Below, piece after piece: positions 1,126-10,670 of a DNA stretch of 64,000 nt. Source of the DNA: Marinitoga litoralis (GTDB taxonomy: Bacteria; Thermotogota; Thermotogae; Petrotogales; Petrotogaceae); the NCBI RefSeq assembly GCF_016908145.1, contig NZ_JAFBDI010000002.1, positions 1 to 64,000 on the forward strand, written 5' to 3'. Made by a program: the position numbers and the translations under genes. Positions within the stretch are counted from its first letter, which is position 1, and every line of letters starts with the position of its first letter. The notes beneath the pieces are model-generated. The model did no database searches. It was given only the letters and a program-made list of their open reading frames with translations, and was not told where the DNA came from.

Positions 1126-3294
1126 ATGTTTATAGATTTCTTATATAATTATAATTTAACAAAAGATCAAGAATATATAGCTAATGAATTAGAGAATTTT
1201 ATTTATAATTCACTAGATTTTATAATTATACAAGGTAGTGCTGGTACTGGTAAAACATTTTTAATATCTCAATATGCTAGATATTTATATAGAAAAAACA
1301 AAAATTTTGTAATTTTAGCTCCAACCGGAAGAGCTGCTAAGATTCTTAATGAAAAATCTAAATTTCAAACAAAAACAATTCATAGTGAAATATATAGTTT
1401 TTATGATAAAACAATAGATCTTGATAATGATGAAATTAAGGTATATTTCAAACTAAAAGATATATATTATAATAATACAATTTTTATAATAGATGAAAGC
1501 TCTATGATTTCTGATATGCAATTGTTAGATGAAAACCTTGTGTTTGGTAGCGGAAAATTACTTTCAGATTTAATTGAGTATATTAAAAACGGTTTGAATA
1601 ATAAGATAATATTTTTAGGGGATGAATATCAACTTCCACCAATTAACTCTAACTTTTCACCAGCTTTAAATAAAGAATATTTAGAAAAGAATTTTAATCT
1701 TAATGGAGAAAAGTTTTTTCTAAATGATATAGTAAGACAGAAAAAAAATAGTTTTATATTAAAAAATGCAAAAATACTAAAAAATCACATTGATAATAAA
1801 AAATTTTTTAATTTGAAATTTGAATATAGTAATGATTTTATAAAAATAGATGACTTTATTAATGACTATAATTTTAATAATCCAGGAAAAGATATTATAA
1901 TTACTTCAACAAATGAAAGAGCTATTAATTATAATAATAAAATTAGAAAAAAATTGGGATACAAAAACAATATAGAAATAGGAGATATTTTATTAAATAC
2001 AAAAAATGTATATTATAATAACATTACAGTATTTAATGGAGAATTTTTTAAAGTTATCGATATTATAAATCATGAAAAAAAAGATACTTTCATAGGAAAC
2101 AATGAACATATCATTCTAGAATTTTATGATTTGAAATTAAAAAATACTTTTTCAGGTGAAATTATAAAATTTAAAGTATTTGCTAATTCACTTTTTTCTA
2201 AATCTTCTAATATAGATTTTAATTTAAAAAAAGCTTTAATAAATTTTTGTATAGAAGATACATATAACCAAGAATATAATATTCAACATATTGATACAAA
2301 TCCATATTTTAACTCTTTGCAAGTAAAATATGGTTATGCTGTGACTGCACATAAAGCACAAGGTGGGGAGTGGGATAGAGTTTTTATTGATCCATATTAT
2401 TATAATTCTCCAAAAACTAAAGAATATTTTCAATGGTTATATACTTCGATTACCAGAGGGAAGGAGCGAATATATATTAAAGAATTACCTTTAAAAACTT
2501 TTCCACAAGACAAATTAAAAATTCAAAAGGATTTTGTATTAAAGGATAAAATCAAAATTTCTTATAATTTAATGTTTAATGATGTTGAATTAAGAAAATT
2601 ATATGAAGCTCTGGAACAAAAAATTTCAGAGTATTTATTTGAAATTATAGGTATTGAACATTTTCAATATCAAGAAGTATATTATATTAAAAGTAACAAT
2701 CATTATTTAAAAGTGCAATTATATTATAATAAGAATTATGAACCTACAAGATTAAAAATATTAGAAACAACAGATGAGAAAATAGCTTTTGATTTTTTAA
2801 ATATTTTTTATTCTCAAAATGAAAATTTAAATAATAAAAACAATATAGATAAATGTATAAAAATATATATTGATGGAAGCTATGATCATCAAAAAAGAAA
2901 ATTTGGTTCTGGTGTTGTGGTTTTAAGAGATGAAATAGAAAAATATTGGAAAGGTTATTACAATGAAGAATACATAAAACATAGAAATGTTGCTGGAGAA
3001 ATATATGCGGCATTATTAGCTTTTGAATATTCTAAAAAAGAGAATTTAAAATGTATAGAAATCAATTATGATTATGAAGGTATAGAAAAGTGGGCTTTAG
3101 GAATATGGAAAACAAACACATATTTATCAAAGTTATATAAAGAAAAATATGATTATTATTCTAAATATTATATAATTAAATTCAATAAAATAAAATCACA
3201 TTCTGGAGACAAATATAATGAATTAGCCGATGAATTAGCAAAAAAAGCTGTATTTGAAGACAATTACAATGTAAAATATGACATTGATATCTAA
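1126..3294 (+). CDS. RecD/Pif1-like SF1 helicase fused to an RNase HI domain
   Basis: A 722-residue cytoplasmic protein predicted to unwind nucleic acid and cut RNA in hybrids. Helicase motifs are in order: Walker A GSAGTGKT (37-44), LAPTGRA (64-70), DESS (123-126), GDEYQLPP (165-172), a late TAHKAQGGEWD (about 407-417) and TSITRGKE (about 440). From about residue 578 an RNase HI domain follows, with the four acidic positions visible: YIDGS (about 583), GEIYAA (about 625), YDYEG (about 650) and ELADELA (about 702). It lacks the long N-terminal region of RecD2. The start has GGAGG seven bases upstream, and TATAAT-like -10 boxes lie at 1085-1100. A nitroreductase follows 12 bases downstream. 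R-loop or hybrid removal is inferred from the fusion. Confidence 0.88.
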   Translation: MFIDFLYNYNLTKDQEYIANELENFIYNSLDFIIIQGSAGTGKTFLISQYARYLYRKNKNFVILAPTGRAAKILNEKSKFQTKTIHSEIYSFYDKTIDLDNDEIKVYFKLKDIYYNNTIFIIDESSMISDMQLLDENLVFGSGKLLSDLIEYIKNGLNNKIIFLGDEYQLPPINSNFSPALNKEYLEKNFNLNGEKFFLNDIVRQKKNSFILKNAKILKNHIDNKKFFNLKFEYSNDFIKIDDFINDYNFNNPGKDIIITSTNERAINYNNKIRKKLGYKNNIEIGDILLNTKNVYYNNITVFNGEFFKVIDIINHEKKDTFIGNNEHIILEFYDLKLKNTFSGEIIKFKVFANSLFSKSSNIDFNLKKALINFCIEDTYNQEYNIQHIDTNPYFNSLQVKYGYAVTAHKAQGGEWDRVFIDPYYYNSPKTKEYFQWLYTSITRGKERIYIKELPLKTFPQDKLKIQKDFVLKDKIKISYNLMFNDVELRKLYEALEQKISEYLFEIIGIEHFQYQEVYYIKSNNHYLKVQLYYNKNYEPTRLKILETTDEKIAFDFLNIFYSQNENLNNKNNIDKCIKIYIDGSYDHQKRKFGSGVVVLRDEIEKYWKGYYNEEYIKHRNVAGEIYAALLAFEYSKKENLKCIEINYDYEGIEKWALGIWKTNTYLSKLYKEKYDYYSKYYIIKFNKIKSHSGDKYNELADELAKKAVFEDNYNVKYDIDI

Positions 3295-3305: not shown

Positions 3306-3866
3306 ATGAATATACAAGAACTAGCTAAAAAAAGAAAAACTGTTAGAAAATTTAATAATGTTATCCCGCCAATTGAAGATATAATATACGCTATAAACGT
3401 TGCAAAAGAAGCTCCTTCTGGGAAAAATGATCAGCCATGGTTATTTATGCTTATTTCTAATAATGAAGAAAAGAATAAAATTAGAGAAATATGCGAAAAA
3501 GGAGAAAAAGCATTTTACAAAAATTCCAAAGGAAGATTAAGAGAATGGTTAGACAAAATGGGGTTTTCTTGGAAAAAAGAATTTCTTTCTGATGCACCAT
3601 ATTTATTATTTGTATTTTCATATCAAATATCTCCTTTTTCAAAAGAATCTGTATGGTTATCAATAGGATATTTACTTTTAGCTTTAGAAGAAAAAGGTCT
3701 ATCTACAGTTACTTATACTCCTTCAAATTATAATGAAATTACAAATTTTATTGCACCACCTGAAAATTATAAATTAGAAGTTATACTTCCAATAGGTTAT
3801 TCTATAGATCCTAAACCCAAATACGAAAGAAAAAATATAGATGAAATTCTTATAATAAAAAAATGA
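3306..3866 (+). CDS. Nitroreductase-family FMN-dependent oxidoreductase
   Basis: A 186-residue protein of the nitroreductase fold, which reduces nitro or quinone-type compounds, or sometimes dehalogenates or processes flavins, using FMN and NAD(P)H. The N-terminus has the family signature RKTVRKF followed by APSGKNDQPW, the FMN-phosphate region. The C-terminal half has the usual hydrophobic dimer segment (SIGYLLLALEEKGLSTVTYTP) and IGY. The start has a strong AAGGAGGTG site and sits 12 bases after the helicase gene, so co-transcription is likely. The stop codon lies inside the downstream terminator stem. The actual substrate cannot be told from sequence. Confidence 0.85.
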   Translation: MNIQELAKKRKTVRKFNNVIPPIEDIIYAINVAKEAPSGKNDQPWLFMLISNNEEKNKIREICEKGEKAFYKNSKGRLREWLDKMGFSWKKEFLSDAPYLLFVFSYQISPFSKESVWLSIGYLLLALEEKGLSTVTYTPSNYNEITNFIAPPENYKLEVILPIGYSIDPKPKYERKNIDEILIIKK

Positions 3867-3888: not shown

Positions 3889-4374
3889 TTATGTTCTGGC
3901 ACAATCACCACCAATATTTTTTATTTTTTCAACAGCATGAGAAATTGCTGGTAATAATACATTCAAATTTTCTTTTACTGCTTTAGGACTACCTGGCAAA
4001 TTAATTATCAAAGTATTGTTTGCTACACCAACAACTGCTCTTGATAACATACCATGTGGAGTGTGTTTTAAAGCTTCTATGATCATAGCCATTTCCATTC
4101 CATATATTCGTCTTTCTATAACTTCTAAAGTCGCTTCAGGGGTTACATCTCTGGGAGTTAATCCTGTACCACCAGTGGTTAATATAATATCTACATCTTT
4201 TTTGATAATTTCTTTTAATTCCTTTACAATAATATCCTTTTCATCAGGTAATATCTTATAACCAACTAATTCACCGTTAATTGTATCCATGATTTCTTGA
4301 ATTACTTTTCCACTTAAGTCCTCTCTTTCGCCTTTAGATCCTTTATCACTTAAAGTTAATATAAAATATTTCAT
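3889..4374 (-). CDS. moaB: Molybdopterin adenylyltransferase-type protein MoaB/Mog
   Basis: A 161-residue protein of the MoaB/MogA fold, which adenylates molybdopterin before metal insertion. Visible motifs are LSDKGSKGERED near the N-terminus, TTGGTGLTPRDVTPEAT in the middle (the substrate-binding signature) and LPGSPKA near residue 130. The length is normal for the family. The start has an AGAGGTG site and overlaps moaC by 4 bases (ATGA). It is the last gene of a minus-strand run of seven that builds the pterin cofactor and imports molybdate or tungstate. In tungsten users MoaB commonly takes this role, which fits the Wtp transporter upstream. Confidence 0.92.
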   Translation of the reverse strand: MKYFILTLSDKGSKGEREDLSGKVIQEIMDTINGELVGYKILPDEKDIIVKELKEIIKKDVDIILTTGGTGLTPRDVTPEATLEVIERRIYGMEMAMIIEALKHTPHGMLSRAVVGVANNTLIINLPGSPKAVKENLNVLLPAISHAVEKIKNIGGDCART

Positions 4375-4847
4375 TTAATATCACCTCTTTTAAAATGACC
4401 ACTCTTACCACCAGATTTTTCTAATAAACATATATCTGAAATTTCCATTTCTTTATCTATCGATTTACACATATCGTATATTGTTAAAGCAGATAGACTT
4501 ACTGCTGTTAATGCTTCCATTTCTATCCCCGTTTTGGATTCCGTTTTTGCCATAGAGAATATCTCAATATTATCTTCATTTATTTTGAATTCAATATCTA
4601 TTTTTGAGATAAAAATATTATGACACATTGGTATTAGTTCTGATGTTTTTTTAGCTCCCATAATACCAGCTATTTTTGCAGTTGTTAAAACATTTCCTTT
4701 AGCGATTTCACCATTTATTATAGAGTTTATAGTTTCTTTTTTCATTTTTATTTTACCATATGCTTTTGCAATTCTTAAGGTAATATCCTTTTCTGATACA
4801 TCTACCATTTTTACATTTCCTTTTTCATCTAAATGTGTAAATTTCAT
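4371..4847 (-). CDS. moaC: Cyclic pyranopterin monophosphate synthase MoaC
   Basis: A 158-residue enzyme that, together with MoaA, converts GTP to cyclic pyranopterin monophosphate, the first step of molybdenum/tungsten cofactor synthesis. Signature stretches are MVDVSEKD, IPMCHNI, EMEALTAVS and LTIYDMCKS, ending in SGGKSGHFKR, all typical of MoaC. The ribosome site GGGGGG is made by the last two glycine codons of moaA, whose stop lies one base before the moaC start, so translation is coupled. It overlaps moaB by 4 bases. Length and motifs are complete. Confidence 0.95.
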   Translation of the reverse strand: MKFTHLDEKGNVKMVDVSEKDITLRIAKAYGKIKMKKETINSIINGEIAKGNVLTTAKIAGIMGAKKTSELIPMCHNIFISKIDIEFKINEDNIEIFSMAKTESKTGIEMEALTAVSLSALTIYDMCKSIDKEMEISDICLLEKSGGKSGHFKRGDIK

Positions 4848-4848
4848 C

Positions 4849-5790
4849 TTATCCCCCCATTTTATGCATAGGTGTTGTTTTTTTTATTTCTTTAAAATAA
4901 TGTTTTTGAGGTTTTTCAAAAACTGCCATTTTTATTTTTTCTTTTAATTCAATTTCATTATTAAAATATTCTTTTAGTGAAATATGATAATCATATGCAA
5001 GACATGGATAAATATCTCCATTAGCAGCAATTCTTATTTTATTGCATAATGAACAGAAATTATGAGTTATAGCAGATATAAAACCTATATATGAATTTAA
5101 TTCTTTTACAAAATAATACTTTGATGGTCCAATTCCAAAATTTTCTTTGTAAGGTATTAATGTATATTTTTCTGAAATTTTTGATTTTAATATATCTTCG
5201 CTTATAAAATCATCTTCATTATAATTTTTTCCAATAGGCATTAATTCAATAAATCTTATTGGTAATTTATATTTTGCTGCAAATTCTATTAATTCAAATA
5301 CCTCATTAAAATTTCTTTTTTGAATTACTGTATTTAATTTTACTTTTAATCCAATTTTTATAGATTTTTCTAAACCTTTAAGCACATTATTAAGGTCATC
5401 TCTTTTCGTAATATCTATGAATGTTTCTCTTTTTAGTGAATCTAAACTGAAATTAACGTTTTTTAACCCATTTTCTTTTAAATCTTTAGCTAAAAGTTCC
5501 ATAAAAGAACCATTTGTAGTAATACTAAATTCTCCAAAATAATAATGTATTATTTTGGCAATATCTATAATATCATTTCTAAGAGTTGGTTCTCCTCCTG
5601 TTAACCTAATATGTTTAAAATCCAACTCTTTTAAATTTTTTATTAATATCCTTATTTCATTTAAAGATAGTAATTCATTGTTTTGCATGAATTTTGCATC
5701 TTCACCCATGCAATAATTACATCTAAAGTTACATTTATCTGTAATAGATAATCTTACATAATTAATTTTCCTATTATACTTATCAATCAT
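4849..5790 (-). CDS. moaA: GTP 3',8-cyclase MoaA (radical SAM)
   Basis: A 313-residue radical SAM enzyme using two [4Fe-4S] clusters to cyclise GTP. The N-terminal cluster motif CNFRCNYC is at residues 20-27. RLTGGEPTLR follows, and the C-terminal cluster cysteines appear in NFCSLCNK and further on in YPC. The protein ends in Gly-Gly, as functional MoaA proteins do. I chose the ATG at 5790 over one at 5820 because GAGGT lies just upstream of it and the earlier start would overlap the transporter gene. It starts 6 bases after that gene's stop. The gene is complete with no missing key residue. Confidence 0.95.
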   Translation of the reverse strand: MIDKYNRKINYVRLSITDKCNFRCNYCMGEDAKFMQNNELLSLNEIRILIKNLKELDFKHIRLTGGEPTLRNDIIDIAKIIHYYFGEFSITTNGSFMELLAKDLKENGLKNVNFSLDSLKRETFIDITKRDDLNNVLKGLEKSIKIGLKVKLNTVIQKRNFNEVFELIEFAAKYKLPIRFIELMPIGKNYNEDDFISEDILKSKISEKYTLIPYKENFGIGPSKYYFVKELNSYIGFISAITHNFCSLCNKIRIAANGDIYPCLAYDYHISLKEYFNNEIELKEKIKMAVFEKPQKHYFKEIKKTTPMHKMGG

Positions 5791-5795
5791 ATATT

Positions 5796-6572
5796 TTACC
5801 TCGATTCTGTATATTTCCAAATATTTTGAATAATTCTAATTATCACAAAAATAATCATAGACATAATAAATATTAAAGCAGTTATAGCTAAAGCTTCTTT
5901 AAGTCCATAGCCTTGAAATTTATCGTATGTGAGAACTGATAATGTCATAGGATAATAGGCTAAAATAGCAACAGCACCAAATTCAGAAATGCCTCTAGCC
6001 CACATTAATAATGATCCTGTAATAATATCATGTTTAACCATTGGAAGAGCTACATAAAAAAATACTTTAAATGGTGATGCACCTAATGATCTAGCGACTT
6101 TTTCGTATCTAATATCAATTTTTTTAAATCCCTCTTTTACTGAATTTACTAAAATACTAAAACTCAAAAATCCCATCGCTGCTACAACACCCCAAAAAGT
6201 ATGAACAAAAGAAATTCCTAACAAGGAAGCTCCTTTTCCAATTAAAGATGATCTACCTAATGTCATTAATAACGCTATACCAGCTGCTGTATGTGGAATA
6301 GTTTGTGGAATATCAATTATAGCTTCGAATAAACTTTTAAAAGGAAAATTATATCTTGTTAATGCATATGCAAAAGGTATTCCAAATAATATAGAAATAA
6401 TTGTTGCAATTAAAGCTGCTAAAAAAGTTGTTTTTACAGCGTTTAAAAATTCTGGAGATTTAGAAATTTCAAATAATAATTGATAATCAACATTTAAAAA
6501 AACTGTGATAAAAGGTAAAATTATAAGTATAACAAAAACTAAACTAATAGTTATAATTATATTCTTGAACAT
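5796..6572 (-). CDS. wtpB: Tungstate/molybdate ABC transporter permease
   Basis: A 258-residue inner-membrane permease with about six hydrophobic segments. It carries the cytoplasmic EAA-type loop (KVARSLGASPFKVFFYVALP), where the ATPase docks, followed by RGISEFGA, as in ModB/WtpB/CysU permeases. The ATG at 6572 is chosen because GGAGG precedes it by six bases. This gives a 29-base overlap with the ATPase gene (6544). The gene sits between wtpC and moaA in the cofactor operon. The WtpA-type binding protein next to it points to tungstate/molybdate rather than sulfate as substrate. Confidence 0.88.
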   Translation of the reverse strand: MFKNIIITISLVFVILIILPFITVFLNVDYQLLFEISKSPEFLNAVKTTFLAALIATIISILFGIPFAYALTRYNFPFKSLFEAIIDIPQTIPHTAAGIALLMTLGRSSLIGKGASLLGISFVHTFWGVVAAMGFLSFSILVNSVKEGFKKIDIRYEKVARSLGASPFKVFFYVALPMVKHDIITGSLLMWARGISEFGAVAILAYYPMTLSVLTYDKFQGYGLKEALAITALIFIMSMIIFVIIRIIQNIWKYTESR

Positions 6573-7203
6573 TTTCTTCCTCCATAAGAATACCATTTTT
6601 TATTTTAAAAATTCTGCTATCATTAATTATTTCATTTTTATCATGTGTTACATGAATTGTAGTTAAATTGTATTCTAAATTCAATTCATGTAATAATTTT
6701 AATATGTCTGTTTTTGTATCTTGATCTAAAGCCGATAACGGCTCATCTAATAAAAGAATTCTAGGTTTAATAACCAATGCTCTAGCTAAAGCAACTCTTT
6801 GTTTTTCTCCACCTGATAAGTTTTGTATTTTCCTATCTAAAAGGTGTTTAATACCTAACTTATTTATAATATATTCAAAAAAACTATAATCATTTATTTT
6901 TTTCATTTTTAAACCAAATTCTATATTTTTTTTCACGTTTAAATGAGGAAATAAATGATAATTTTGATACATAAATCCTACATTCCTTTTTTCTGGAGAT
7001 ATTTTATTCATATTAAAATTATCAAATTTTATTTCTCCTGATTCAGGAGTAACAAAACCAGCTATACATTCTAATAATAGTGTTTTTCCTGAACCTGTAG
7101 GTCCTATAATATATACATATTCCCCTGATTTTATAGAAAAGTAATCAATTTTTAATCTAAAATTATCAACCTTTATTATTAGATTTTTTATATCTAAATT
7201 CAA
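6544..7203 (-). CDS. wtpC: Tungstate/molybdate ABC transporter ATP-binding protein
   Basis: A 219-residue ATPase with Walker A GPTGSGKT (about 36-43), signature LSGGEKQRVALARAL, Walker B LLLDEP and the switch His in IHVTHD. At 219 residues it lacks the C-terminal TOBE/mop domain of many ModC or WtpC proteins, so substrate-dependent feedback through that domain is not expected. It starts with TTG at 7203, preceded by GGAGGTATTAAT that overlaps the end of wtpA (whose stop is 7205-7207). It powers uptake through the WtpB permease encoded next. Confidence 0.88.
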   Translation of the reverse strand: MNLDIKNLIIKVDNFRLKIDYFSIKSGEYVYIIGPTGSGKTLLLECIAGFVTPESGEIKFDNFNMNKISPEKRNVGFMYQNYHLFPHLNVKKNIEFGLKMKKINDYSFFEYIINKLGIKHLLDRKIQNLSGGEKQRVALARALVIKPRILLLDEPLSALDQDTKTDILKLLHELNLEYNLTTIHVTHDKNEIINDSRIFKIKNGILMEEENVQEYNYNY

Positions 7204-7204
7204 A

Positions 7205-8122
7205 TTAATACCTCCATATTTTTTTTAATTCATTTGGAATATTATTAGGATTATCGACATTTACAAATAATTCCATACCTTTTTCTTTAAATATTCTTTT
7301 TCCTTCATCAGAATACATGAATTTAATAAATTCAATAGCTTCATTTTTATTATTTGCATTTTTTGGAATAGTAAAACTATAATTAATAGATTTACCATAT
7401 ATTTTTGTTTTTTCTCCATTTTTTCCTGGAACTTCTATAAATGTTTTATTATAATTTTCTTCAAAATTTACAGATGATAAATTTATTTCATCAGGAAATT
7501 CTATATATTTTAAATTATGTTGAATGGCATTTGATTTGTATAAAAAAGCATAATCCATTTCGGTTGCTTCTAAATATGCAATTAAATCTATAGACTTTTT
7601 TAATATCATTCTATTTTTAGAATTTAAAAAATTGTTATATAGTCCATTTAGATTATAATATTTTTCAGCTAATTGCATAGCCATTAAAGTTCTATAACCT
7701 GCAGGGTCTAAGTCAGGATTTGAATGTCCAAAGATAACCCCCTTATTAAAAATAACCTTATACCAATTATCTTTATTTATTTCTTCACTATATTTTGAAT
7801 TCTCTGTATATCCTAAAACCATGCTATTATTTGAAAAAATCACATTGAAATTTGCATATTCAGGATATAAAAAACTTGGAATTATTGTATAATCTGCTAC
7901 AAAAGCTAAATCAGCCATTTGACCTAATTCTGTAATTTTTCTTACTACAACTAAACTACCAGAACTCATTAATTGAACTTCCACATCAGGATTATTTTTT
8001 TCAAATTCTATTGCTATAGCTTTTAATACATTAGTTAAAGAACCAGCATGAAAAATGATCAATTTCTTGGAAAATGAAATCATAGTTAAAATAATAAATA
8101 AGAATAAAAAAATTTTTTTCAT
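7205..8122 (-). CDS. wtpA: Tungstate/molybdate-binding periplasmic protein WtpA
   Basis: A 305-residue exported binding protein. A hydrophobic signal (FLFLFIILTMISFS) precedes IIFHAGSL. The WtpA/ModA-like pattern continues with SSGSLVVVRKITELG, FVADYTIIPSF, PEYANF, NWYKVIF, and DLDPAGYRTLMAMQLAEKYY, which closely follows the archaeal WtpA type rather than E. coli ModA. WtpA proteins bind tungstate and molybdate tightly. No lipobox cysteine is visible after the signal, so it may be free or held by the signal anchor. Its start overlaps the MOSC gene's stop by 4 bases (ATGA). Confidence 0.9.
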   Translation of the reverse strand: MKKIFLFLFIILTMISFSKKLIIFHAGSLTNVLKAIAIEFEKNNPDVEVQLMSSGSLVVVRKITELGQMADLAFVADYTIIPSFLYPEYANFNVIFSNNSMVLGYTENSKYSEEINKDNWYKVIFNKGVIFGHSNPDLDPAGYRTLMAMQLAEKYYNLNGLYNNFLNSKNRMILKKSIDLIAYLEATEMDYAFLYKSNAIQHNLKYIEFPDEINLSSVNFEENYNKTFIEVPGKNGEKTKIYGKSINYSFTIPKNANNKNEAIEFIKFMYSDEGKRIFKEKGMELFVNVDNPNNIPNELKKIWRY

Positions 8123-8583
8123 CTTACATTTTCCTCCACAAAATCATTACTAAAAAATATTACTTCATCTCCAACTTTTATTTTTCCACCTTTTAATACC
8201 TTTAAAAATATTCCTTCTAATGGCATTACACATTTTCCAATAGTTTGAGATATTGCACATGATGTATGGCATTCTTTTCCAATTTGAGTTATTTCTAGTA
8301 ATGTATCACCAATTTTCACTTTTGTACCTATAGGAAGTTTATAAATATCCCCGTTTTTTATGGTGATATTTTCTGCGAAATCACCATAATTTAATTCATA
8401 ACCATATTTTCGCATCTTATCTATACTCTCTTCTGATAGCATTGAGATTTGTCTATGCCAATTTCCTGCATGAGCATCGCCTTCAATTCCCCAATTTTCT
8501 TTTAAAATTGCATATTCAATTGGTTCTTTAGTAACTCCCTTTTTTCTTGAAATATTAATAGAAACAACATATGAATTAAGCAT
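8119..8583 (-). CDS. MOSC-domain protein
   Basis: A 154-residue stand-alone MOSC domain, related to the C-terminus of molybdenum-cofactor sulfurases. Family features are IEGDAHAGNWHRQIS near residue 37, GDFAENI in the middle and the conserved cysteine region GKECHTSC near residue 105. Small bacterial MOSC proteins are usually found with moa/mog genes and are thought to carry or transfer sulfur to the metal-pterin site, but the exact reaction is unproven. It is first in the seven-gene minus-strand operon and has a GGGGGG ribosome site. TATAAT at 8627-8622 with a weak TTTGTA 17 bases upstream may be its promoter. Confidence 0.85.
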   Translation of the reverse strand: MLNSYVVSINISRKKGVTKEPIEYAILKENWGIEGDAHAGNWHRQISMLSEESIDKMRKYGYELNYGDFAENITIKNGDIYKLPIGTKVKIGDTLLEITQIGKECHTSCAISQTIGKCVMPLEGIFLKVLKGGKIKVGDEVIFFSNDFVEENVR

Positions 8584-8621
8584 AAATACCCCCCTTGAAA
8601 AAAAATAATAATTTCAAACTA

Positions 8622-8650
8622 ATTATATCATTTTTCATTTTTTTTACAAA
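8622..8650 (-). promoter_or_regulatory. Candidate promoter of the MOSC-wtp-moa operon
   Basis: Minus-strand TATAAT (8627-8622) is preceded after 17 bases by TTTGTA (8650-8645), a weak -35. It lies about 40 bases upstream of the MOSC start. A TTGAAA/TTTCAA inverted pair (8595-8617) lies in the leader. Confidence 0.45.
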
Positions 8651-8692
8651 ACTAAGTATTATTGTTTCTCGTCTATTAATTTAAAGATAACC

Positions 8693-8721
8693 TTCATTTT
8701 TATGTTATTTTGTTGTATAAT
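8693..8721 (+). promoter_or_regulatory. Candidate promoter of the moeA operon
   Basis: TATAAT (8716-8721) has TTCATT 17 bases upstream, only a half-match to the -35 consensus. The -10 is strong and well placed, about 30 bases before the TTG start at 8754, so a regulator may assist. Confidence 0.45.
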
Positions 8722-8753
8722 TTAAAATAGCAAAACTAACAGGGGGGATTTTT

Positions 8754-10670
8754 TTGAAAAGAAGGATTTATCTTAATAAAAAAGATTTTGAAGAGTCCAT
8801 AAAGGATTATTTTAGTGAATTAAAAGATTATTTTTTAAAGGATAATATCGAATATATTAATACAAGAGAAGGAATGAAACGAGTAACAGCTTTACCGATA
8901 ATAGCAAATGAAAATGTACCTTCATACAATAGTAGCGCAATGGACGGAATAGCTGTTATTAGCAAAAGAACATATGGGGCAAATGAATCTAATCCTATTA
9001 TTTTAGAGAAAGAAAAAGACTTTGAATATATTAACACGGGTTATCCAATTAATACTCCATATGATAGTGTAATAATGATTGAAAATGTTGAAATTATAGA
9101 TGATGAACACGTTCAAATAAGAAGTAGCGTTTATCCTTACAAAGATGTAAGGAAAGTAGGAGAGGATATATGTAAGGGTGAAATGCTATTCCCTAGATAT
9201 CATACCTTGACTGCATCTGATATCTCATTTTTAATGATGGCAAAAGTTTTTAAAATACCTGTTATTAAGAAAATGAAAATATTATTAATACCAACAGGTA
9301 ATGAAATTGTTAAACCAGAAAATCTAACTGAAGAGTTTCAAATTCCTGAAACTAATTCTTTAATGATAAAAAATTATTTAGAACAGTTTAATGCTATAGT
9401 TGATGTAAACGAAATTCTACCTGATGATATAAATATAATAAAAAATACAATTGTAGAAAAAATAAAAGAATATGATTTAATCCTTTTAAATGCTGGTTCA
9501 TCAGCAGGTTCAAAAGATTTTACTTTTCATGCAATAAATGACCTTGGAAAAGTTATTATTCATGGAATAAATATAAAGCCTGGAAAACCTGCTGTTTTAG
9601 GTATTGTAAACGAAAAACCTGTCATAGGATTACCAGGATTTCCTGTTTCTTGTAATATTATTATGGCAGATATAGTCAAACCTTTAATTCTAAATAAAAC
9701 AAAATATGAAATATATTATGATAATGAAATTATTGAAGGTATTTCTGCAAAAAGGATACATTCTTCTATCACAGAAAAAGAGTATTTAAGAGTAGGTGTT
9801 GGAAAAGTAGGAGATAATTATGTAGCAATTCCTTTAAAAAGGGGAGCTGCAAATATTTCAGCTGTTTCTAAACAAGATGGGATTGTATATATAGAAAAAG
9901 GTGTTGAAGTTATTGAAGATGGTGAAGCAGTATCTATACATTTAAAAAGAAGTAAAAAATTAATTGATAATAATATCTTGATTATAGGCAGCCATGATTT
10001 ATTATTGGATTTGCTTGCGGATTTTATAAAAAAATATGATAAGAATATCAATATTGTGTCTGCAAATGTAGGAAGTCTTGGAGGAATTTTATCAATAGCA
10101 AAAGGGTATTCCCACATGTCAGGAATGCATTTACTTGATCCAGTAACTGGAGAATATAATATTCCATATATAGAAGAATATATGGATGATTTTAAATTAA
10201 TGAATTTATCTTACAGAGAACAAGGATTTATAGTTCAAAAAGGCAATCCGAAAAATATAAAAGATTTTGAAGATTTGACAAAAGATGGTATAAGGTACAT
10301 TAATAGGCAAAAGACTGCTGGGACAAGAATATTGTTAGATTATTATCTTGATAAAAAAGGAATATCTCCACGTGAAATACATGGTTATTCGGATGAAGAG
10401 TATTCTCATGTCAATTTAGCTTTAAAAATAAAAAAAGATATGGCTGATGTGGGGTTAGGAATTAGAGCTGCAGCTAATATTTATAATTTAGACTTTATCC
10501 CAATTGCTTTAGAAAGATATGATTTATTGATTCATGATAGTTTCTTAAAGGATAGAAGATTTGAATTAATTATGAATATTATTACTTCAAATGAATTCAA
10601 AAAAGAAGCAGAAAAATTAGGTGGATATATATTAAAAGACACTGGAAAAATATGGGAGGTTATAAAATGA
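8754..10670 (+). CDS. MoeA-type molybdopterin molybdotransferase fused to a PBP-like domain
   Basis: A 638-residue two-part protein. Residues about 1-400 are MoeA-like, inserting molybdate or tungstate into adenylated pterin. SSAMDGIAV, the NTGYP region, PTGNEIV, LLNAGSSAGSKDF and KPGKPAVLG with LPGFPVS are the usual MoeA motifs. Residues about 415-620 form a PBP-like domain (GSHDLLLDLLADF, GSLGGILSIAKG, RQKTAGTRILLDYYL), like a periplasmic binding protein but with no signal peptide, so it acts in the cytoplasm. This fusion is known in several anaerobes and the PBP part may sense a ligand. The start is TTG after AGGGGGGA. It overlaps the next gene by ATGA. Confidence 0.9.
   Translation: MKRRIYLNKKDFEESIKDYFSELKDYFLKDNIEYINTREGMKRVTALPIIANENVPSYNSSAMDGIAVISKRTYGANESNPIILEKEKDFEYINTGYPINTPYDSVIMIENVEIIDDEHVQIRSSVYPYKDVRKVGEDICKGEMLFPRYHTLTASDISFLMMAKVFKIPVIKKMKILLIPTGNEIVKPENLTEEFQIPETNSLMIKNYLEQFNAIVDVNEILPDDINIIKNTIVEKIKEYDLILLNAGSSAGSKDFTFHAINDLGKVIIHGINIKPGKPAVLGIVNEKPVIGLPGFPVSCNIIMADIVKPLILNKTKYEIYYDNEIIEGISAKRIHSSITEKEYLRVGVGKVGDNYVAIPLKRGAANISAVSKQDGIVYIEKGVEVIEDGEAVSIHLKRSKKLIDNNILIIGSHDLLLDLLADFIKKYDKNINIVSANVGSLGGILSIAKGYSHMSGMHLLDPVTGEYNIPYIEEYMDDFKLMNLSYREQGFIVQKGNPKNIKDFEDLTKDGIRYINRQKTAGTRILLDYYLDKKGISPREIHGYSDEEYSHVNLALKIKKDMADVGLGIRAAANIYNLDFIPIALERYDLLIHDSFLKDRRFELIMNIITSNEFKKEAEKLGGYILKDTGKIWEVIK

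Follow-up and report, generated by a model that had tools for sequence, protein, structure and literature searches.

A single gene of Marinitoga litoralis encoding an SF1B helicase, a TBP-like module and an RNase HI domain

R-loops are normally handled by separate helicases and RNases H, and we know of no T4 Dda, RecD2 or Pif1 protein that is fused to an RNase H. Helicases of the SF1B group to which these belong are expected to move in the 5'–3' direction. Pif1-family SF1B helicases are described as acting on R-loops (PMC3999857, PMC7720201). The acronym TOTE denotes TPR, OB, TBP and Effector, and RNase H domains are reported to be often part of TOTE systems; both statements follow PMC12458937, which cites Aravind et al. 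(2022). RNase HIII has a TBP-like N-domain that binds RNA:DNA hybrids but neither dsDNA nor dsRNA (PMC4132731), and a hybrid-binding logic has also been published for TBP–HEPN fusions (PMC3710099). No description of a fusion of helicase, TBP-like domain and RNase HI was found in the papers searched; the gene reported here holds known modules in a new order.

The gene lies at positions 1126–3294 (+) of the window, by which is meant the whole 64 000-nucleotide stretch of M. litoralis DNA that was analysed (contig NZ_JAFBDI010000002.1, positions 1 to 64,000). It is one open reading frame of 722 residues with an ATG start, and a GGAGG ribosome-binding site (1116–1120, +) stands 5 bases before the ATG at 1126. 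The product begins with a motif, MF[IL][DN]FLY, that is conserved within the genus. As read from its sequence, the gene encodes three modules, a helicase, a TBP-like domain and an RNase HI, with the motifs of the helicase and of the RNase HI intact. The initial annotation had proposed a two-part layout, of which the single-chain union of helicase and RNase HI is real and conserved; the third, TBP-like module, which is recognized both by PF22721 and in the predicted structure, had been overlooked.

The SF1B helicase core, of the Dda/PDC-M16A type, occupies residues 9–455 (1150–2490, +), with SF1 helicase Pfam domains spanning residues 24–207 and 402–451 (AAA_30, 67 bits; AAA_19, 64.9 bits; UvrD_C_2, 53.5 bits). 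Motifs I, Ia, II, III, V and VI of the SF1B helicases (Dda/RecD/Pif1) are all present, as had been noted initially for the SF1 motifs: GSAGTGKT (Walker A; residues 37–44; 1234–1257, +), LAPTGRA (64–70), FIIDESS (120–126), in which motif reading and alignment place the Walker B residues D123 and E124 (1492–1497, +), GDEYQLPP (165–172), TAHKAQGGEW (407–416) and YTSITR (439–444). The core matches the Dda-like family phrog_325 (E 2.3e-67), and the best match of the predicted helicase structure was T4 Dda (3upu; Z 16.1, r.m.s.d. 3.4, 225 aligned), the full-length model being poor in the helicase part (overall pLDDT 58.8). Core motifs and fold are like those of T4 Dda, RecD2 and Pif1. Membership of RecD2 itself was rejected: TIGR01448 gave 107.3 bits, far under its cut-off of 500, and the best stretch ran from profile position 332 on, which bears out the earlier remark that the N-terminal part of RecD2 is missing.

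The first description of the helicase as RecD/Pif1-like holds as far as the SF1B motifs go, but its nearest described kin are the helicase–TBP proteins of the PADLOC PDC-M16A/TOTE type and not RecD2 or Pif1. PADLOC identified it as an A-type helicase of the candidate defence system PDC-M16 (PDC-M16A, E 9.9e-126; residues 4–549 at E 7.5e-124), and no open reading frame of the B-type partner adjoins the gene anywhere in the genus. Related helicases on plasmids (L034–L036) carry DUF4145, the helicase and then two TBP-TOTE domains; in the two loci that were scanned for it (L034 and L035) the gene that follows encodes DUF7017 and S1CSD-TOTE domains, and the TPR repeats of the partner genes are clearest in L034. 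The fusion shares with these proteins the type of helicase and a TBP-like domain behind it, whereas it lacks DUF4145, has one TBP-like domain in place of two, ends in an RNase HI and has no adjoining TPR/S1-CSD gene. Of the features of a TOTE system, the TBP-TOTE domain is present (PF22721 above its cut-off) and the adjacent partner with TPR and S1/CSD (OB) domains is absent, the neighbours being a nitroreductase and an AddB-like fragment. A search of 103 genomes of the phylum with PF22708 (S1CSD-TOTE) gave no match, and its control was equally without one. As an observation on a different locus, L177 (genome G046) contains a TOTE-like pair in which a 661-residue frame with two TBP-TOTE domains and UvrD_C_2, for which Pfam gave no match to helicase N-terminal ATPase domains, is followed by a TPR/DUF7017 gene.

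The TBP-like module comprises residues 487–565 (2584–2820, +), with PF22721 (TBP-TOTE) matching at residues 489–552 (47.9 bits, E 1e-12, cut-off 27). Residues 470–722 were modelled with AlphaFold from an alignment of 15 rows (mean pLDDT 91); in this model the module (pLDDT about 95) consists of a helix, four strands and a helix, and is followed by a disordered linker (residues about 564–575; 2815–2850, +; pLDDT under 50). Profile comparison matched the module to TBP1 of the TOTE helicases (probability 98, E 1.8e-13) and more weakly to TBP2 (E 1.6e-7), from which it follows that the RNase HI occupies the place of TBP2. With RNase HIII the protein would have in common a single TBP-like module ahead of an RNase H, a putative likeness suggested by PF22721 and by the predicted order of helix, four strands and helix; it differs in that its catalytic domain is an RNase HI (PF00075) and not of the RNase H2 type, in that a helicase stands in front and in that the TBP module is of the TOTE type. 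By analogy, the TBP-like domain probably grips RNA:DNA hybrids. The N-domains that other RNases HI of the phylum carry (A4, A6) were considered as a source of the module and rejected, since they gave no significant profile match, against the probability of 98 for TOTE TBP1. The RNases HI in question, from other families (L023–L030, L220–L222), have an N-terminal domain of about 80 residues with a pattern that looks like helix, four strands, helix.

The RNase HI domain extends over residues 577–712 (2854–3261, +) and is matched by PF00075 at residues 578–709 (38.1 bits, cut-off 25.8). Its predicted fold is clean (best match 2ehg; Z 17.7, r.m.s.d. 2.3, 136 aligned), and the list returned by a structure search with the 470–722 model was filled by RNase HI matches. 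The domain that had been reported after about residue 578 is complete, with all four acidic residues in place: the predicted catalytic residues D583 (2872–2874, +), E625 (2998–3000, +), D649 (3070–3072, +) and D702 (3229–3231, +), together with H692, are the same in all six copies of the genus that are intact. The RNases HI of the other genera of the family are 38–51% identical to that of the fusion; one of them, an HBD (PF01693) RNase HI (L020), shares the catalytic domain and has an HBD where the fusion has a TBP-like module and a helicase. In the RnlA/RNase LS toxins (PMC3710099) RNase HI or TBP-like modules have likewise been joined, independently, to another enzyme, the partner there being a HEPN toxin and here a helicase. 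Two HBD–RNase HI–RnlA (RNase LS/HEPN) fusions of this published class were also found (L040:4520–6001 in G003 and L047:6389–7849 in G054; PMC3710099), and L048:4781–6559 (G039) encodes an RNase HI with a long C-terminal region and weak TPR matches (592 residues).

The genome of the window has a single full-length copy of the fusion. Every one of the seven genomes of the genus carries it, the other six copies being 55–73% identical, and with all its motifs it is also present in three genomes (G075, G083 and G088) of a second family of the same class. The nine intact orthologues from the two families are single open reading frames that retain the helicase and RNase HI motifs; across them the helicase and the RNase H are each 56–79% identical and the linker 7–21%. 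The suspicion that two separate genes had been merged through an assembly or sequencing error, which had been put forward as a possible refutation, could draw on one copy only, that of G002, in which helicase and RNase H are read in different frames. There the frame is broken within the unconserved linker, no ATG, GTG or TTG stands in the RNase H frame ahead of the first catalytic Asp, and the same contig also carries broken copies of purH and the nitroreductase gene, so that a sequencing error in G002 is likely. With full-length single frames in nine genomes of two families, such a merger is so improbable that it may practically be dismissed, and by the evidence of these sequences the fusion is a genuine gene and no assembly join. 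In the tree the fused helicases group as a single clade (98/99) and G075 falls inside the sequences of the genus, a position that suggests horizontal transfer.

No second RNase HI was found in the window's genome with PF00075, and RNase HII is present there in one copy. Six of the seven genomes of the genus yielded no RNase HI but the fusion, and these six have no HBD-type RNase HI domain; the exception, G003, has its other RNase HI inside an HBD–RNase HI–RnlA toxin fusion. The fusion is not the sole such enzyme everywhere, since other RNase H genes accompany it in family f10. The neighbours of the fusion are metabolic and differ between species; a nitroreductase gene, in the window the downstream neighbour (3306–3866, +), adjoins it in five of the seven genomes, and no TOTE (TPR/S1-CSD) partner stands beside it in the genus.

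With moderate confidence we favour the reading that the product is a three-module enzyme with a 5'–3' SF1B motor, a TBP-like clamp and an RNase HI, that its helicase–TBP part came from the TOTE/PDC-M16A type and that it is now the ordinary RNase HI of the cell. The helicase–TBP part of a conflict system would have been captured and joined to an RNase HI that replaced the second TBP domain. The clamp may then dock on an RNA:DNA hybrid in the manner of the RNase HIII N-domain, the RNase HI would cut the RNA of the hybrid, and the motor would travel along the DNA, opening the R-loop or clearing proteins and cut RNA, so that the protein could serve R-loops or primer RNA. A role on RNA:DNA hybrids is our best guess from the sequence, and a housekeeping role seems likelier than one as a defence effector, as the fusion is the sole RNase HI found in most genomes of the genus and has metabolic neighbours and no TOTE partner. 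Against this reading count the presence of other RNase H genes beside the fusion in the genomes of f10 and the fact that the helicase families nearest to it among those described are candidates for defence. The protein might instead act against phages or plasmids, with helicase and TBP-like domain recognizing the replication intermediates of an invader and the RNase HI, as effector, destroying the RNA:DNA hybrids that these contain. Such a function would agree with the match of the helicase–TBP part to PDC-M16A of PADLOC (E 1e-125), with the TPR/S1-CSD TOTE genes that come after the plasmid relatives, with the RNase H domains that TOTE systems are reported to contain often (PMC12458937) and with a helicase–TBP gene lacking RNase H in G082 (L159:6493–9865), which may form a conflict system with the SAVED-domain gene directly after it. 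We consider it unlikely, as the fusion is found in every genome of the genus beside metabolic genes and with no adjoining partner gene, is usually the only RNase HI, and leaves TBP–RNase H behind where the helicase is lost.

Genes of about 250 residues for TBP–RNase H without a helicase were found in seven genomes of family f10, four from genus g32, where every sampled genome has one, and three from g26. In the RNase H tree one of these, G087 (g32), is nested within the group of fusions (96/86). Just upstream of its TBP–RNase H gene, collinear and on the same strand, are remnants of the helicase (L160:5990–6135; 'MFINFLSDFELTTDQ', 'LTGRAAKIL' and 'ENLEFGSGK') that are joined directly to the segment preceding the TBP module; the best of them scored 29.3 bits, compared with a maximum of 21.9 in 500 single-base shuffles of the intergenic stretch, and the nucleotide match has an E of 3e-9. 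The remnants and the nesting together indicate that the helicase decayed while TBP–RNase H stayed, at least in that lineage, where the motor is, on this evidence, dispensable; G087 is a natural deletion of the motor. No helicase remnants were found for the other helicase-less TBP–RNase H genes, and the tree leaves the order of events there unsettled.

The loss speaks against our main reading in so far as the motor appears not to be needed everywhere. It could even be that the protein is a plain RNase HI whose activity resides in TBP–RNase H, with the helicase as a passenger that is being lost or contributes little, as the seven f10 genomes and the decayed pieces of G087 might be taken to indicate; with helicase motifs intact in nine orthologues and a helicase identity as high as that of the RNase H, we judge this quite unlikely. 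For the history of the three-module enzyme we put forward, tentatively, that a conflict-system helicase was domesticated: its TBP module would have come to hold hybrids for an RNase HI, the resulting single-chain R-loop eraser would have replaced the HBD–RNase HI of the genus, and some relatives would later have lost the motor. If so, a protein of immunity type would have turned into a housekeeping enzyme. A single-chain helicase–RNase H that is the only RNase HI detected in the genus, with motor-less relatives beside it, would make testable what the helicase adds, and the protein might also provide a heat-stable tool for RNA:DNA hybrids.

Mapping of helicase–RNase H fusions, as proposed in the initial annotation, yielded the seven genomes of the genus and the three of the second family, and none in the other phyla, phages, plasmids and viral contigs surveyed. 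In three sets of genomes from other phyla (287, 398 and 168), profile searches turned up nothing that clearly spanned TBP and RNase H; the widest match, in G442, covered profile positions 17–247 (112.7 bits). Among the matches listed in a GTDB-wide scan, the helicases of Bacteroidota (about 470 residues) are too short for TBP and RNase H. An origin from mobile elements was rejected, as neither the full fusion nor TBP–RNase H was found in the phage, plasmid and IMG/VR records scanned. The surveyed genomes are samples, so that restriction of the fusion to this phylum is provisional. The G442 locus (L217) has its RNase H in a 324-residue frame, and the start of the profile match at position 17 is within the TBP-like part.

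Two further features of the window were recorded. A short open reading frame at 621–986 (−) joins approximately the first 60 residues of an AddB-like protein, which L041 encodes in full, to part of an oxidoreductase (PRK13984); this join, near the left end of the contig and some 330 bases away from the fusion gene, is a rearrangement or an assembly join. Positions 3889–10670 hold a cluster for molybdenum cofactor and transport of the molybdate/tungstate type, with MoaA-, MoaC-, MogA- and MOSC-like genes, an ABC transporter and a MoeA–PBP fusion.
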